64,000 nucleotides of DNA, from positions 1-64,000 of the forward strand of contig SVJO01000004.1 of NCBI GenBank assembly GCA_015068935.1. Reading direction: 5' to 3'. Each line of letters begins with the position of its first letter. The stretch's first letter is position 1. The notes below the pieces were generated by a model. That model was given only the letters and a program-made list of their open reading frames with translations, was not told the origin of the DNA and did no database searches. Positions 7,078 through 35,023 of the stretch are shown here, piece after piece. The translations under genes were made by a program, and so were the position numbers. This DNA comes from Oscillospiraceae bacterium. Its GTDB lineage: Bacteria; Bacillota; Clostridia; UBA1381; UBA9506.

Positions 7078-7350
7078 GTAAACGCAGTGATGCGGAATAG
7101 TAAGCAAAAGACTTTCGCCTAAGAGAGATGCCGGGCGGTGCGAGGCATTGGGAAAGATTTGCAGAACTCACCGCGGAGCGGCTGCCGTGAACTAAAGTAG
7201 GGGCAGACGGGAACTCCCGTAACAGAGTTAAGATGTGTTGGCATCTAAAGTGCATCCGTCAGGATGAAGAAGAGTGGTACCGCGGAAACATATTTTGATT
7301 TTAACGTTTTCGTCTCTTTGGATTGACATTGAGACGAAGGCGTTTTTTTG
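7078..7350 (+). ncRNA. T-box leader, leucine-type (specifier CUC at 7167-7169)
   Basis: AGAGTGGTACCGCGG at 7271-7285; distal stem I GATGCCGGGCGGTGCGAGGCAT; specifier loop 5' AGTA and 3' GAA-CTC-A; terminator stem CGTCTC...GAGACG with T7 ending at 7349. Confidence 0.94.
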
Positions 7351-7401: not shown

Positions 7402-8790
7402 ATGAAAAAAATCATCATTACAGATATTACACTTAAAAAGCTTTCAGCTGATAGGGAGGTTGCCCTTCTTTTCCGTGAAAAAACAGCTGTAGCAGCCTGT
7501 GCAGATGCAGTAGGTGCAGATGCTTTAGAACTTGCACCTATAAAAAATCTTCGTGAAGATTCTATTATTTATAAAACTATTGCCCAGAATGTACAAAATG
7601 CTGTTTTGACTATTCCAGCAGGTTTCAGCAAGGAAGATATAGCTCTTGCATGGGAATGTGTTAAGGATGCAAAAAAACCGCGCCTGCAGATAGAAGTTCC
7701 GGTATCAACTGTGCAGATGGAATACACTTACCATATTAAAGCAGATAAAATGATATCAAAAATAGGCGAGCTTATTAAAGCTGCAAAAGAGTTATGTGAT
7801 GATGTGGAATTCTCAGCACTCGATGCAACACGGGCAGATATTGATTTTCTTACTGCTGCTTTAAAAGAGGCACAGGATAGCGGCGCAAGTATTGTCACAA
7901 TTTGTGATGATGCAGGTACAACACTTCCTGAAGGTATTGCATCAATAGTGGAAAAAGCGAAACAGACAGTAACTATTCCTGTTTATGTAAAAGTTTGTGA
8001 CCGCATTAATTTAGGTGTTGCATCAGCACTTTCTGCAATAGCAAAAGGTGTTGATGGTATTAAATGTGCTATGGCAGGGGAGGATGTACTTTTAATAGGA
8101 GAGCTCTCTGATGCAATAAAAGCATGCTCTAAAGAATTGTCCGCACAAACAAATATTGATGACACTAAAATACATGCAAGCATCCAGGATATGCTTACAT
8201 GCATTAATCATGAGATAAACGAAGAGACAAACACAGTTAGTGACAAAAAGAAAATTCTTCTTGACTCAGACAGTACCATCTCTCAGGTTGCGCAGGCAAC
8301 TCAGGTTTTAGGTTATGACCTTTCTGATTCTGACTGTGGAAATGTACATAAGGCACTTTTACAGATATGTGAAAAGAAAGGCGCGGTAGGTGCAAAAGAG
8401 CTTGAAGCATTAATTGCAAGCTCTGCTATGCAGGCACCATCGACATACCATTTGGAAAATTACACGACAAACAGCAGTAATCTTACAAGCTCTATGTCAC
8501 AGGTAACATTAAAATGCGATGGGGAGACTATATGCGGTGTTGCTACAGGCGATGGACCTATTGATTCTGCATTCCGAGCCATAGAACAGTGTATAGGACA
8601 TCACTATGAGCTTGATGATTTTCAGGTTCAGGCTGTAACTGAAGGGAAAGAAGCATTGGGTTCTGCCGTTGTAAAACTTCGCAACAACGGAAAATTATAT
8701 TCGGGAAACGGTATTTCAACAGATATTGTTGCCGCAAGCATAAGAGCATACATAAATGCGCTCAATAAGATTGTATTCGAGGAGGCATAA
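7402..8790 (+). CDS. LeuA-like (2-isopropylmalate synthase family) protein lacking recognisable catalytic/metal-binding motifs, with a LeuA regulatory domain
   Basis: AWECVKDAKKPRLQIEVPVSTVQMEYTYHIKADKMISKIGELIKAAKELCDDVEFSALDATRADIDFL is clearly LeuA-like; C-terminus GDGPIDSAFRAIEQCIGHHYELDDFQVQAVTEGKEALGSAVVKL...GNGISTDIVAASIRAYINALNKI matches the LeuA allosteric domain; TLRDGEQ, HCHND and GERAGN motifs are absent. Confidence 0.85.
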   Translation: MKKIIITDITLKKLSADREVALLFREKTAVAACADAVGADALELAPIKNLREDSIIYKTIAQNVQNAVLTIPAGFSKEDIALAWECVKDAKKPRLQIEVPVSTVQMEYTYHIKADKMISKIGELIKAAKELCDDVEFSALDATRADIDFLTAALKEAQDSGASIVTICDDAGTTLPEGIASIVEKAKQTVTIPVYVKVCDRINLGVASALSAIAKGVDGIKCAMAGEDVLLIGELSDAIKACSKELSAQTNIDDTKIHASIQDMLTCINHEINEETNTVSDKKKILLDSDSTISQVAQATQVLGYDLSDSDCGNVHKALLQICEKKGAVGAKELEALIASSAMQAPSTYHLENYTTNSSNLTSSMSQVTLKCDGETICGVATGDGPIDSAFRAIEQCIGHHYELDDFQVQAVTEGKEALGSAVVKLRNNGKLYSGNGISTDIVAASIRAYINALNKIVFEEA

Positions 8791-8791
8791 A

Positions 8792-11245
8792 ATGAAGATT
8801 GTATTTTCAACAAAAAATGTAAACCGTGCATCTTTCCTTGATACATGTCGCTATGCCTATGATTATGGTTTTTCAGGATTTGAAATATATGATGCTTTAA
8901 AGGAGCGCGCTCAGCACCATGACAGCTATTTGCGTCGCGAGAGAACATCGGATGCAAAAAGGAAGCTTATTAACCGCAACCTTTCAGTTCCTGCACTCCG
9001 TATGCCCTATCCGATAGAGAGCGACGACATAACAGCTGATATAGTTTCAAAATATATAGATATCGCAGCAAATGCAGGTGTTAAAAATATAATTGTGCGT
9101 GTTGAAAAAGAAATATCTTTTGATATATTAAAAGACAAACTTTCAGACGCAATAAAACGTGCCGAAAAATCTGATGTCGGAATTTTGTTTGAAACTGTGG
9201 GATATCTTTCTGACACACAAAAAGTTATTGATATTATTAACTATTTCTCATCTGCGGTAATTGGTGCATCGTGGAATGTAAGAGGAACATATTTTGGTGC
9301 AGGAGAAACAGCAGAGACAACAATTAAAACACTTGGAGCATATATAAAATACGTGCGTCTGGGTGACATGAAAAATGGAAAAACAGTTTTAATAGGGGAA
9401 GGCGAGCTTCCTGTAGAAAACTTAATCAAGGCGCTCTCTTCACTTAATTTTGATGGCTTTATCTGTGCTGCATGGAATGAGGACATTAATGATGCAGATA
9501 TCGTGCTGACTCATTTTGTAAATTATATTGCATCTCTTAAACGCGAAAAGAAAACGTATGACAAGGTATACTATAACAGAGCAAAAACAGGGACATTTGT
9601 ATGGAGGAAATATGATGTTATAGATGCAACATTTTCTGATGTGCTTGATAAAATGGCAGAAAAATATCCTGACCAGTATGCATTTAAATATCCGACACTT
9701 GATTATACAAGAACATATGAACAGTTCAGGCGCGATGTTGATGAGTGTGCCGCAGCCCTTATTTCAATTGGTGTAAAAGCAGGTGACCATGTTGCAGTAT
9801 GGGCAACAAATGTGCCTGAGTGGTTTATCACATTCTGGGCTACCACGAAAATCGGTGCAGTGCTTGTTACTGTAAATACGGCATATAAAATCCATGAGAT
9901 TGAATATCTTCTAAAGCAGTCAGACACACATACTCTTGTCATGATTGAGTACTGTAAGGATATTAACTATAAAGAAATTATCTCAGAGCTTTGTCCTGAG
10001 CTGAAAAATATCACACCGGGAGAGGCACTTTATTCAAAAAAACTTCCCTTCCTTCGCAATGTAGTAACAGTTGGCTTTTCAATGGACGGCTGTCTTACAT
10101 GGGAACAGATGCTTTCGCGGTCTTCCATGATTCCGCGTGAGGAAGTGAGAAGGCGTGCATCATTGGTTAAGCCTGATGATGTGTGTAATATGCAATATAC
10201 ATCAGGAACTACAGGATTTCCCAAAGGTGTTATGCTGACACATAGAAATATCGTAAACAACGGCAAAACTATTGGTGACAGAATGGACTTATCAACAGCT
10301 GACCGTATGATGATTCAGGTGCCGATGTTCCATTGTTTTGGAATGGTTCTTTCAATGACATCTATGATGACTCATGGCGGAACACTTTGTCCTATTCCGT
10401 ATTTTTCACCAAAATCGTCGCTTGCCTGTGTAAATGACGAACGAATAACATGCTTTAACGGAGTTCCCACAATGTTTATCGCAATGTTTAATCACGCTGA
10501 TTTTGCAAAGACAGATTTCTCATATATGAGAACTGGAATTATGGCGGGTGCAAACTGTCCTGCAGATTTAATGAGACGTGCAGCAGACGAAATGAATATG
10601 CGTGAAATCATATCGGTTTACGGCCAGACTGAAGCATCTCCCGGATGTACTATGGGAGAGGTTAACGAGGATATTGACCATCGTGTTGAAACAGTCGGAA
10701 GTGCTTTTCCTGGGGTAGAGTGTAAAATCATTGACCCTGAAACAGGCGAGGAACTTCCAGATGGTCAAAGCGGAGAATTTGTGGCTCGCGGCTTTAACAT
10801 CATGAAAGGTTATTATAAAATGCCTGAGGCAACTGCACAGGCTATAGATGCTGATGGCTGGCTTCATTCAGGGGATATTTGCATGAGAACTCCTGACGGA
10901 TATTTTAAAGTAACGGGCAGACTTAAAGACATGATTATCCGCGGTGGCGAAAATCTGTATCCGCGTGAAATAGAGGAATTTTATCTGACAAACCCAAAAG
11001 TGCGTGATGTTCAGGTTGTTGGTGTGCCTGATGAAAAATATGGTGAGGAATGTTGTGCATGGATTATTCTTCATAAGGGCGAGACAGCAGACGAAAATGA
11101 AATGAGAGAATTCGGGAATGCATATATTGCACGTCATAAAGTTCCGAGATACTTCTTGTTTGTTAATGAATTTCCTATGAATGCAGCAGGAAAAATATTA
11201 AAATATAAAATGCGTGATGAGTCAAAAGAAATTTTAGGGCTCTAA
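8792..11245 (+). CDS. Fusion: N-terminal xylose-isomerase-like TIM barrel plus C-terminal AMP-forming acyl-CoA ligase
   Basis: First ~265 aa resemble sugar isomerase/AP endonuclease 2-type barrels (GILFETVG..., GEGELPVENLIKALSSLNFDGF); the remainder carries YTSGTTGFPKGVMLTHRN, GQTEASPG, SGDICMRTPDGYFKVTGRLKDMIIRGGENLYP and AAGKILKYKM. Confidence 0.88.
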   Translation: MKIVFSTKNVNRASFLDTCRYAYDYGFSGFEIYDALKERAQHHDSYLRRERTSDAKRKLINRNLSVPALRMPYPIESDDITADIVSKYIDIAANAGVKNIIVRVEKEISFDILKDKLSDAIKRAEKSDVGILFETVGYLSDTQKVIDIINYFSSAVIGASWNVRGTYFGAGETAETTIKTLGAYIKYVRLGDMKNGKTVLIGEGELPVENLIKALSSLNFDGFICAAWNEDINDADIVLTHFVNYIASLKREKKTYDKVYYNRAKTGTFVWRKYDVIDATFSDVLDKMAEKYPDQYAFKYPTLDYTRTYEQFRRDVDECAAALISIGVKAGDHVAVWATNVPEWFITFWATTKIGAVLVTVNTAYKIHEIEYLLKQSDTHTLVMIEYCKDINYKEIISELCPELKNITPGEALYSKKLPFLRNVVTVGFSMDGCLTWEQMLSRSSMIPREEVRRRASLVKPDDVCNMQYTSGTTGFPKGVMLTHRNIVNNGKTIGDRMDLSTADRMMIQVPMFHCFGMVLSMTSMMTHGGTLCPIPYFSPKSSLACVNDERITCFNGVPTMFIAMFNHADFAKTDFSYMRTGIMAGANCPADLMRRAADEMNMREIISVYGQTEASPGCTMGEVNEDIDHRVETVGSAFPGVECKIIDPETGEELPDGQSGEFVARGFNIMKGYYKMPEATAQAIDADGWLHSGDICMRTPDGYFKVTGRLKDMIIRGGENLYPREIEEFYLTNPKVRDVQVVGVPDEKYGEECCAWIILHKGETADENEMREFGNAYIARHKVPRYFLFVNEFPMNAAGKILKYKMRDESKEILGL

Positions 11246-11309: not shown

Positions 11310-11590
11310 TTGAATATCACAAAGAACAACTATGACGAAGACGGTCGGATTGCGTAGCTTATAGAGAGTTGCCGGTTGCTGCGAGGCAATAGTGAAGCTT
11401 TCCAATGACTTATCACTTCTGAGTTGGGGGACCGAAAGGCTTATGCTCAGTAGACTCCTTCCGTAATGCTGCGTAAAAGCAAAAGGCTTGTTAGAGCCTG
11501 GTAAGTGACGAAATTTACTTTTCGTAATTTGAGTGGTACCGCGGGTTTAATAGCTCGTCTCAAAGATAATTTTGAGACGGGTTTTTTTGT
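11310..11590 (+). ncRNA. T-box leader, branched-chain amino acid type (specifier probably CUU at 11409-11411; AUC at 11412-11414 possible)
   Basis: GAGTGGTACCGCGG at 11531-11544; distal TTGCCGGTTGCTGCGAGGCAA; terminator CGTCTCAAAgataatTTTGAGACG followed by a T-tract. Confidence 0.92.
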
Positions 11591-11651: not shown

Positions 11652-13955
11652 ATGGAGTACAATTTAAAAGAGGTTGCGGGCAGGATTAAAGACCTGCGCG
11701 AAGCAAAAGGCTATACACCAGACGAGCTTGCAAAGCTAACAGGTGTGTCTTTAGAGGACTATAAAATTTTAGAAGAGGGTGAAACAGATTTCAGTTTCAC
11801 ATTTATCTACAAATGCGCTAAAGCATGCGGAGTTGAGGTTGTTGATATTTTAGAGGGAACAAGCACAACTCTTACTTCTTTTGATATTACCAGAAAAGGC
11901 GAGGGACTCAAAATTATAAAAAGGCAGGGAGTTGTTTACAACAACTTAGCACCCAAGTTTAAAGGAAAACTTGCAGAACCGTTCTTGGTTAAGTTTCCAT
12001 ATCTTGAAGAAGAACAGAATGAACCCATTAAGCTTAGCTCTCATAATGGTCAGGAATTTGACGTTATTGTTAAGGGCTCACTAAAGGTTCAGGTTGGAAG
12101 TCATATTGAGATTCTTAATGAGGGCGACTCGATTTTTTATAACAGCAGTATTCCCCATGGCATGATTGCAGCAAGCGAGGGCGGATGTGAATTCCATGCT
12201 GTTGTATTAAATCCGCACGACGGACGTTTAGGCGACGAGTACCCTGAGGCTCCCTTTATAGCTGCAAAGACTGCTACGGCAGAAAACAGGACTGAAACGA
12301 CGGTTGCTGATAAATTTATCGAATCATCTTATGATGAAAACGGGGTATTCAGCGGTATCAAATTCAAAAATGACGATAAATTCAACTTTGCATTTGACTG
12401 TGTTGATAGCATAGCCGAAAAAAATCCTGATAAGCTCGCTATGATGTGGGTTGCAAATGATAAGACAGACCGAAAATTTACTTTTAGCGATATGAAGAAA
12501 TATTCAAACAAAACAGCTAACTATTTTGAATCGCTAGGCATTAAAAAAGGCGATACAGTTATGCTTGTTTTAAAGCGCCACTATCAGTTTTGGTTCTGTA
12601 TGCTTGCACTTCATAAAATCGGTGCCATTGCAATTCCTGCTACAAATCAGTTGGTTGAACATGATTTTACATACAGATATAAGGCGGCTAAAGTAAAGGC
12701 AATTGTTTGTACGGCAGACGGTGATGTATCAGAAGAAGCTGAAAAGGCTGCCGCACAATTCCCCGAAATGGTTAAAATTCTTGTAGGCGGCAAAAGGGAA
12801 GGCTGGAAAGATTTTAATGTAGAAATGGAGCGCTTTAGCACGCATTATTACCGCACAGAGAACACTCCGTGCGGAGATGACCCTATGCTGATGTTATTTA
12901 CCTCGGGAACAACAGGATATCCGCGTATTGCAACACATTCATATAAATATGCACTCGGTCATTATCCGACTGCTAAACACTGGCACAATGTAAACCCCGA
13001 CGGACTTCACTTCACAATTTCAGACACAGGCTGGGGAAAAGCACTGTGGGGCAAATTATACGGACAATGGCTTTGCGAAGCTGGAATATTTACATATGAT
13101 TTTGACAGATTTCATTCAGAGGATATTCTTCCCCTATTTAAAAAATATAATATCACAACATTCTGCGCACCGCCTACAATGTACCGTTTCTTCATTAAAG
13201 AAGACCTGTCAAAGTATGACTTATCTTCAATTGAATACGCAACAACAGCAGGTGAAGCGCTTAATCCTGAGGTTTTCAACCAGTTTAAAAAGGCAACTGG
13301 CTTAACAATCATGGAAGGTTTCGGTCAGACGGAAACAACTCTCTCAATTGCAAATTTTGTTGGGTCTACACCCAAAATCGGCTCTATGGGAAGACCAAGT
13401 CCGCTTTATGATGTTGTTATTTTGGATGCAGACGGAAATGAATGTAAGACAGGGGATACAGGTGAAATCTGTATTCGTGTAAAAGACGAAGTACCTTGCG
13501 GACTCTTTATCGGCTATTACCTTGATGAAGAAAAAACAAACGAGGTATGGTATGATGGATACTATCATACAGGAGACCAGGCAACAATGGACGAAGACGG
13601 ATATCTTTGGTATGTAGGACGTATTGATGACGTTATTAAATCGTCAGGTTATCGTATCGGACCGTTTGAGATTGAAAGTGTTATCATGGAGCTTCCTTAT
13701 GTTTTGGAATGTGCAATAACACCTGTTCCCGATGAAGTGCGCGGACAGATTGTAAAAGCGACTATAGTTTTGACAAAAGGCACTGAAGGAACAGATGAAC
13801 TCAAATGCGAAATTCAGGAATATGTTAAAACACATACTGCACCATACAAATATCCCAGAATTGTTGAATTTGTAGATGAGCTTCCAAAGACCATAAGCGG
13901 TAAAGTAAGACGCGTGGAGATTCGCAAGAATGATTTAGAAAAAATGAATAAGTAA
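11652..13955 (+). CDS. Fusion: XRE-type HTH plus cupin plus AMP-forming acyl-CoA synthetase (ACSM/acetyl-CoA synthetase-like)
   Basis: MEYNLKEVAGRIKDLREAKGYTPDELAKLTGVSLEDYKILEEGE (HTH); NGQEFDVIVKGSLKVQVGSHIEILNEGDSIFYNSSIPHGMIA (cupin); FTSGTTGYPRIATHS, GEGFGQTE-type region and ELPKTISGKVRRVEIR (ligase). Confidence 0.9.
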   Translation: MEYNLKEVAGRIKDLREAKGYTPDELAKLTGVSLEDYKILEEGETDFSFTFIYKCAKACGVEVVDILEGTSTTLTSFDITRKGEGLKIIKRQGVVYNNLAPKFKGKLAEPFLVKFPYLEEEQNEPIKLSSHNGQEFDVIVKGSLKVQVGSHIEILNEGDSIFYNSSIPHGMIAASEGGCEFHAVVLNPHDGRLGDEYPEAPFIAAKTATAENRTETTVADKFIESSYDENGVFSGIKFKNDDKFNFAFDCVDSIAEKNPDKLAMMWVANDKTDRKFTFSDMKKYSNKTANYFESLGIKKGDTVMLVLKRHYQFWFCMLALHKIGAIAIPATNQLVEHDFTYRYKAAKVKAIVCTADGDVSEEAEKAAAQFPEMVKILVGGKREGWKDFNVEMERFSTHYYRTENTPCGDDPMLMLFTSGTTGYPRIATHSYKYALGHYPTAKHWHNVNPDGLHFTISDTGWGKALWGKLYGQWLCEAGIFTYDFDRFHSEDILPLFKKYNITTFCAPPTMYRFFIKEDLSKYDLSSIEYATTAGEALNPEVFNQFKKATGLTIMEGFGQTETTLSIANFVGSTPKIGSMGRPSPLYDVVILDADGNECKTGDTGEICIRVKDEVPCGLFIGYYLDEEKTNEVWYDGYYHTGDQATMDEDGYLWYVGRIDDVIKSSGYRIGPFEIESVIMELPYVLECAITPVPDEVRGQIVKATIVLTKGTEGTDELKCEIQEYVKTHTAPYKYPRIVEFVDELPKTISGKVRRVEIRKNDLEKMNK

Positions 13956-34808: not shown

Positions 34809-34840
34809 AAAAAAAGATGCTTCCCGATTGGGAAACATCC
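34809..34840 (-). terminator. Expression-platform terminator of the TPP riboswitch
   Basis: Minus strand GATGTTTCCC-AATC-GGGAAGCATC-TTTTTTT. Confidence 0.85.
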
Positions 34841-34852
34841 GACGAAAACGAT

Positions 34853-34942
34853 ATAATTCCTACGTTGGCATTACCCAAATCAGGTTATTCCGGTTAAAGC
34901 GGCAATACGCTTACTCTCAGCCTGTTTGCACAAGCTCCCGTC
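34853..34942 (-). ncRNA. TPP riboswitch (THI element)
   Basis: Minus strand GGGAGC...CAGGCTGAGAGTAAGC...AACCTGATTTGGGTAATGCCAACGTAGGAA. Confidence 0.96.
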
Positions 34943-35023
34943 TGTTTTTAAATTGTAAATGAATTTACGGCAAAGAACCAAAGGTTCTAAAAGATTTATG
35001 TTGCGCAACAAAATCTGTGTATA

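Follow-up and report, generated by a model that had tools for sequence, protein, structure and literature searches.

A putative LeuA-derived pseudoenzyme encoded beside an acyl-CoA ligase under a leucine T-box in ruminant-gut bacteria

Introduction

HisZ, a component of the HisG–HisZ ATP-phosphoribosyltransferase, is a regulatory pseudoenzyme subunit. The leucine pathway offers an active enzyme for comparison, LeuA, in which the Mycobacterium tuberculosis contacts to substrate, metal and acetyl-CoA include D81, H285, H287 and the GxGERxG motif, and in which subdomain I carries Y410, the residue on which leucine feedback to the LeuA active site depends (PMC2704214). Leucine can also be made without LeuA: rumen bacteria convert isovalerate to leucine by carboxylation and amination, 2-methylbutyrate to isoleucine and isobutyrate to valine (PMC7356843). 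That leucine is formed from isovalerate in the rumen was recognised in the 1960s, the carboxylation route being attributed to Allison (1962, 1966; as cited in PMC7356843). The acyl-CoA synthetase MbcS activates 2-methylbutyrate and isobutyrate, and isovalerate only poorly (PMC10026030). In the open-access literature that we searched, we came across no paper that assigns activating genes or an end-product feedback element to the isovalerate route, and no earlier description of the operon reported here or of a LeuA pseudoenzyme.

Results

The gene under study, pseudo-LeuA (PLA), occupies positions 7402..8790 on the + strand of a 64,000-nucleotide stretch from an Oscillospiraceae bacterium (the whole stretch is referred to as the window) and encodes 462 aa; its annotation rests on Pfam, an active-site alignment, an AF2 model and dN/dS. 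The original prediction of a full-length, intact ORF is correct, the frame being unbroken from the ATG at 7402 to the stop at 8788-8790, with a ribosome-binding site (GAAAGGGG) directly 5′ of the ATG. The product comprises an apparently dead HMGL-like barrel (residues 1-226; Pfam match 3.5e-27 over residues 4-226), a shortened linker (residues 227-330) and a LeuA_dimer regulatory domain (residues 331-457; 1.5e-33), and Pfam finds both domains in 52/52 family members. Matches to the NCBIfam LeuA equivalogs fall far under cut-off (TIGR00973, 226 bits vs 598.7). Structural overlay on LeuA had been named beforehand as a check, and the likeness holds: the AF2 model, computed from an alignment of 52 family members (pLDDT 85.7), has the LeuA fold, its barrel matching the LeuA structure 3ewb in a fold search (target TM-score 0.92, rmsd 1.6) and the full-length model finding, among its matches, the leucine-bound LeuA structure 3fig. 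Elsewhere in the window, a TPP riboswitch lies at 34840-34951 on the - strand (RF00059, 61.6 bits).

Aligned with LeuA of E. coli and with two LeuA sequences of its own order, PLA has LKKLSA in place of LRDGEQ, QMEY in place of HMEY, FSALD in place of FSxED and KVC in place of HCH. Residue by residue, R13 of LeuA corresponds to K12 of PLA, D14 to K13, H106 to Q105, E141 to L140, T171 to D170, H202 to K197 and H204 to C199. The losses that had been read by eye are thus confirmed, both for the catalytic Arg and metal Asp of LRDGEQ (now K12 and K13) and for the two metal-ligand His (now Lys and Cys). In the alignment, the catalytic Arg, metal-binding Asp and HxH metal ligands are changed across the PLA family, and the I-G-E-R of GIGERAGN together with the entire SGIHQDG linker segment is deleted in 79/79 aligned full-length relatives. 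The metal Asp position is variable among relatives (K, E, V, A, N and others), and newly fixed residues are seen at other sites, namely the HMEY His (Q in 72/79), the second ligand His (S in 72/79) and T171 (D in 64/79). An active site preserved in shifted positions, which would have refuted the original prediction, is ruled out by the alignment and the fold match, with the deletions recurring in every relative aligned. On this sequence evidence we consider PLA to be a catalytically dead LeuA homologue, and isopropylmalate synthase activity is inferred to be absent.

The C-terminal regulatory domain was said to be retained, and its motifs prove to be near-invariant: GDGPID; L404, F407, A418 and G420; and GxGxSxDI. 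The pocket positions G383, G385, L404, G420 and I/V387 are kept in 79/79 sequences, and F407 and A418 in 76/79 each. Correspondence with the M. tuberculosis pocket (PMC2704214) was set by motif spacing and the E. coli LeuA alignment, not by structural superposition, because the regulatory domain by itself, used as a profile against PDB sequences, gave a match too weak for direct transfer (best match 3f6g, E = 0.62). The linker segment deleted from PLA falls in LeuA subdomain I, and the disappearance of this feedback-signalling segment is consistent with an altered output. LeuA_dimer domains of citramalate synthases respond to isoleucine; given such relatives, and with no binding data, the LeuA_dimer domain of PLA could bind a ligand other than leucine. 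Most distant members excepted, identity to the window protein is 70-92% in the regulatory domain and 45-75% in the barrel.

A collection scan confirmed at least 480 candidate stretches. Nearly all of the best 80 loci among these (L060-L139) come from ruminant-gut assemblies, the remainder being a single genome from horse faeces and a small number of others, and taxonomically they comprise Clostridia/Oscillospiraceae, one Lachnospiraceae bin and three Spirochaetales bins. Set against LeuA-type controls, the PLA sequences form a single monophyletic group (support 97/98). Pairwise dN/dS is 0.04-0.09 for PLA overall, 0.07-0.17 for the barrel and 0.007-0.035 for the regulatory domain; PLA is under strong purifying selection, strongest in the regulatory domain. 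In the Spirochaetales bins (L113, L118 and L120) the PLA-ligase pair has no T-box motif 5′, and the sequences are nested within the Clostridia tree, which suggests horizontal transfer. In genome G038 (L165:2461-4212), the PLA N-terminus and the C-terminal portion of the ligase fusion lie in one ORF that has additional losses, through a real deletion or as an assembly artefact.

The neighbouring gene (8792..11245, + strand) encodes an 817-aa acyl-CoA ligase fusion in which an AP_endonuc_2 (xylose-isomerase-like) N-terminal barrel (~8792-9556; Pfam 5.9e-13) precedes an AMP-binding acyl-CoA ligase (3.1e-95). The ATP motif TSGTTGFPKG and the C-terminal Lys region NAAGKIL are intact and invariant across 24 aligned members. 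This fusion is the next gene after PLA in 80/80 loci (the best 80 of at least 480), usually 5-12 bases away, an adjacency that rules out a chance operon. Because the AF2 model of the fusion is of low quality across the ligase core (pLDDT 67), no inference on mechanism or interface was drawn from it; fold searching returned generic adenylating enzymes only.

The ligase's N-terminal barrel is without metal ligands in the main clade (D to N in 70/71, H to R in 71/71, H to R in 69/71 and E to mostly A). N162, R164 and R189 are fixed in this dead barrel. The ligands are intact in 7/7 standalone ligase fusions from genomes without PLA, and also in 2/2 of the most distant PLA partners. Because the latter retain them beside a LeuA barrel that is already dead, we infer from these alignments a suggested order of loss in which the LeuA barrel would have died first and the ligase barrel second. 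Standalone AP_endonuc_2/acyl-CoA ligase fusions of ~840 aa occur at L161, L162, L163, L164, L166, L167 and L168, with no PLA neighbour in the stretches read. A related AP-barrel/ligase fusion with a 64-68% identical ligase is found elsewhere without a PLA partner, indicating that the ligase has no inherent need of PLA.

A third gene (11652..13955, + strand) encodes a 767-aa protein that combines an XRE-HTH, a cupin and an MbcS-like acyl-CoA synthetase (Pfam HTH_3, Cupin_2 and AMP-binding), with AcylCoAsynMbcS as its top NCBIfam match (457 bits, under the cut-off of 850). It is the probable 2-methylbutyrate activator of a parallel isoleucine branch, and its HTH-cupin portion resembles a further sensor integrated into the protein. 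An amidohydrolase (Amidohydro_2) lies near the operon in 22/80 loci (L060-L139; the best 80 of at least 480) and also at L042:12752-13546.

The leucine T-box reported in front of PLA is recovered at 7078..7320 (+ strand; RF00230, 123.1 bits against a gathering score of 93); it contains the T-box sequence UGGUACCGCG and the Leu specifier CUC at 7167-7169. An isoleucine T-box leader lies at 11323..11565 (+ strand; RF00230, 93.7 bits), with specifier AUC at 11412-11414. Across the family, a Leu specifier was read in 24/25 Rfam-located T-boxes preceding PLA (23 by pattern and L138 by eye), the single exception being L132, where a proximal Ile leader stands in tandem with a Leu leader. Plain alignment had given a count of 47/52 Leu; five divergent leaders were misaligned there and were re-read from the Rfam-located leaders. 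Upstream of PLA in L042 and L043, the two most distant members, a Leu T-box was sought and none was found. The first MbcS-like synthetase has an Ile specifier in 9/9 Rfam-located leaders read, and second MbcS-like copies lying downstream (L123 and L135) have a Val T-box in 2/2.

The window's own genome holds five T-boxes: the Leu and Ile pair described above and those of pheST (UUC), a probable aspS (weak) and another acyl-CoA ligase, the UUC before pheST serving as a check on the specifier-reading rule. The last of these (L156:1489-4097, contig C41) has an apparent Tyr specifier, UAC, followed by a 544-aa acyl-CoA ligase and a phosphopantetheinyl-transferase-like gene, and possibly serves aromatic amino-acid synthesis from an arylacetate.

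Ninety-five genomes of the order, all metagenome-assembled, were surveyed, and 21 carry PLA, two of them as contig-end fragments only. True LeuA is present in 0/21 carriers vs 63/74 noncarriers (Fisher 2e-13), and ketol-acid reductoisomerase (KARI) in 1/21 vs 49/74. Fisher tests disregard relatedness and the counts carry no phylogenetic correction, leaving within-genus contrasts as the safer evidence; carriers and noncarriers are both found within genera g3, g4, g8 and g19, and therefore no single ancient split is involved. PLA replaces LeuA in carrier genomes, the two being mutually exclusive. In the window's own genome (metagenome-assembled, ~91% complete) we looked for LeuA, KARI and a LeuC-sized protein and found none. 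Its sole other HMGL-like gene encodes an oxaloacetate-decarboxylase-type protein, which rules out a second active LeuA; with no active LeuA alongside, the label "paralogue" used in the original prediction has to be dropped.

The same genome has a branched-chain aminotransferase (BCAT) and 2-oxoacid:ferredoxin oxidoreductases of the PorA and IOR types; a VorB-type subunit was sought in this ~91% complete assembly without a match. Several related loci cluster BCAT with VorB, a subunit of 2-oxoisovalerate:ferredoxin oxidoreductase, beside the PLA-ligase pair, and at L128 both score above the NCBIfam cut-off. Between the aminotransferase and VorB, L128:10905-11573 encodes a 222-aa CbiA/ParA-like P-loop protein with relatives in 10/80 loci (the best 80 of at least 480). 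The poor activity of MbcS on isovalerate would explain a separate ligase under a Leu T-box, and the adjacent ligase probably makes the leucine precursor from isovalerate, a substrate that we infer.

Discussion

The proposal that PLA is a functional pseudoenzyme is well supported by catalytic loss across a monophyletic family, purifying selection, ligase adjacency in 80/80 loci, the Leu T-box and the replacement of LeuA. Its assignment as a leucine sensor or a ligase scaffold, offered in the original prediction, is still an inference, there being no leucine-binding or complex data; the isovalerate-carboxylation context, the siblings with Ile and Val T-boxes and the dead N-terminal barrel of the ligase were outside that prediction's view.

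We propose that PLA is a LeuA-derived leucine-feedback subunit of the adjacent ligase in an isovalerate-carboxylation route to leucine, a reading to which we assign a probability of about 0.55. Observed directly are the loss of the active site, the selection, the operon and T-box architecture and the mutual exclusion with LeuA; leucine binding, a complex, the substrate and the direction of control are inferred. Under this proposal, carrier bacteria have lost the 2-isopropylmalate route, and isovalerate from the gut would be converted to isovaleryl-CoA by the adjacent ligase, reductively carboxylated to 2-oxoisocaproate by a VOR-type ferredoxin oxidoreductase and transaminated to leucine by IlvE. 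Uncharged tRNA-Leu would turn the operon on via the T-box and so set the amount of ligase. The C-terminal domain of PLA is predicted still to bind leucine and form a dimer, with catalysis gone, and PLA most likely binds the ligase, perhaps via the dead barrel fused to it, restraining it in trans at high leucine as the fast end-product brake formerly within LeuA. The ligase, as the new first committed step, would thereby regain end-product feedback through PLA. Several points count against the proposal: the T-box on its own could supply leucine control, related ligase fusions exist without PLA, the ligand of the LeuA_dimer domain could be another one, the ~91% complete genome of the window yielded no VorB-type match, and no Leu T-box was found before the gene in L042 and L043. 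A more specific version, which we advance tentatively and at somewhat worse than even odds, is a two-pseudoenzyme allosteric module in which PLA, docked on the ligase's own dead TIM barrel (whose metal site is intact in relatives), exerts feedback in trans on the ligase and controls the conversion of isovalerate to leucine in ruminant-gut bacteria.

The main rival is that PLA is a structural subunit only, an obligate scaffold or stabilizer of the ligase whose LeuA_dimer domain is kept for dimerization and not for leucine sensing. Adjacency in 80/80 of the best loci fits this, the C-terminal domain of LeuA also serves as a dimer domain, and the feedback-signal linker is deleted. However, the near-frozen motifs cover the leucine-pocket glycines and hydrophobics and not the dimer surface alone, the T-box shows that the operon responds to leucine status, and scaffolding by itself leaves the recruitment of a LeuA unexplained; we regard this rival as unlikely, though it deserves to be taken seriously. 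That the pocket is kept for some other ligand, such as isoleucine, valine, isovalerate or an acyl-CoA, finds a precedent in the isoleucine response of citramalate synthases and a hint in the tandem Ile and Leu T-boxes of L132, but the Leu specifier is almost universal before PLA and isoleucine and valine are served by their own T-box-controlled synthetases, leaving us with little credence in it.

Two further explanations concern the barrel and the gene as a whole. A repurposed barrel, catalysing a novel reaction of this pathway without need of a metal, might account for the residues newly fixed at some former active-site positions (Q 72/79, S 72/79, D 64/79) and for a barrel dN/dS that is still low (0.07-0.17). 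It is nonetheless improbable in view of the variable metal Asp position, the deletion of active-site-lining segments in every member aligned and a barrel whose conservation lies plainly below that of the regulatory domain. A degenerating pseudogene, frameshift or assembly error, for which the loss of every catalytic residue could be cited, is ruled out for practical purposes: in at least 80 assemblies the PLA frame is open and synteny is preserved, with the Leu T-box kept, and a low dN/dS (0.04-0.09) combined with a regulatory domain more conserved than the barrel is impossible for a pseudogene in free fall.

If the leucine-feedback reading of PLA is true, a whole regulatory domain has moved between chemically unrelated committed-step enzymes through loss of the old active site and retention of the sensor. 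The operon offers a candidate activation gene and feedback element for the isovalerate route, with T-box specifiers that name each ligase's amino acid. Members of the PLA family are common in genomes from the ruminant gut, a habitat in which branched-chain acids act as growth factors and are also given as feed additives; naming by domain content would mistake PLA for 2-isopropylmalate synthase and wrongly predict the classical pathway.

Among known systems, LeuA itself (PF00682 plus PF08502; structures 3ewb, 3rmj, 1sr9 and leucine-bound 3fig) shares with PLA its two-domain build, fold and regulatory motifs, whereas PLA lacks the metal ligands, the catalytic Arg, His and Glu, GxGERAGN and the SGIHQDG segment, and its gene stands in for LeuA and not beside it. 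Like the T-box-controlled amino-acid genes of a published survey, the operon has a specifier that matches the product amino acid, and a term search of the survey's main text returned no acyl-CoA ligase (PMC2494555). MbcS activates short branched-chain acids, as the ligases described here are proposed to do, but supplies fatty-acid synthesis and is poor on isovalerate (PMC10026030). The rumen isovalerate carboxylation pathway is the proposed context of the PLA-ligase operon, which would take in its isovalerate, 2-methylbutyrate and isobutyrate branches. As with HisZ, a former enzyme persists as the obligate neighbour of the enzyme for the committed step in an amino-acid pathway; unlike HisZ, PLA retains LeuA's own end-product domain, which would now serve an unrelated acyl-CoA ligase in place of a Claisen-type synthase, and is a fresh variation on the theme of the pseudoenzyme regulator.
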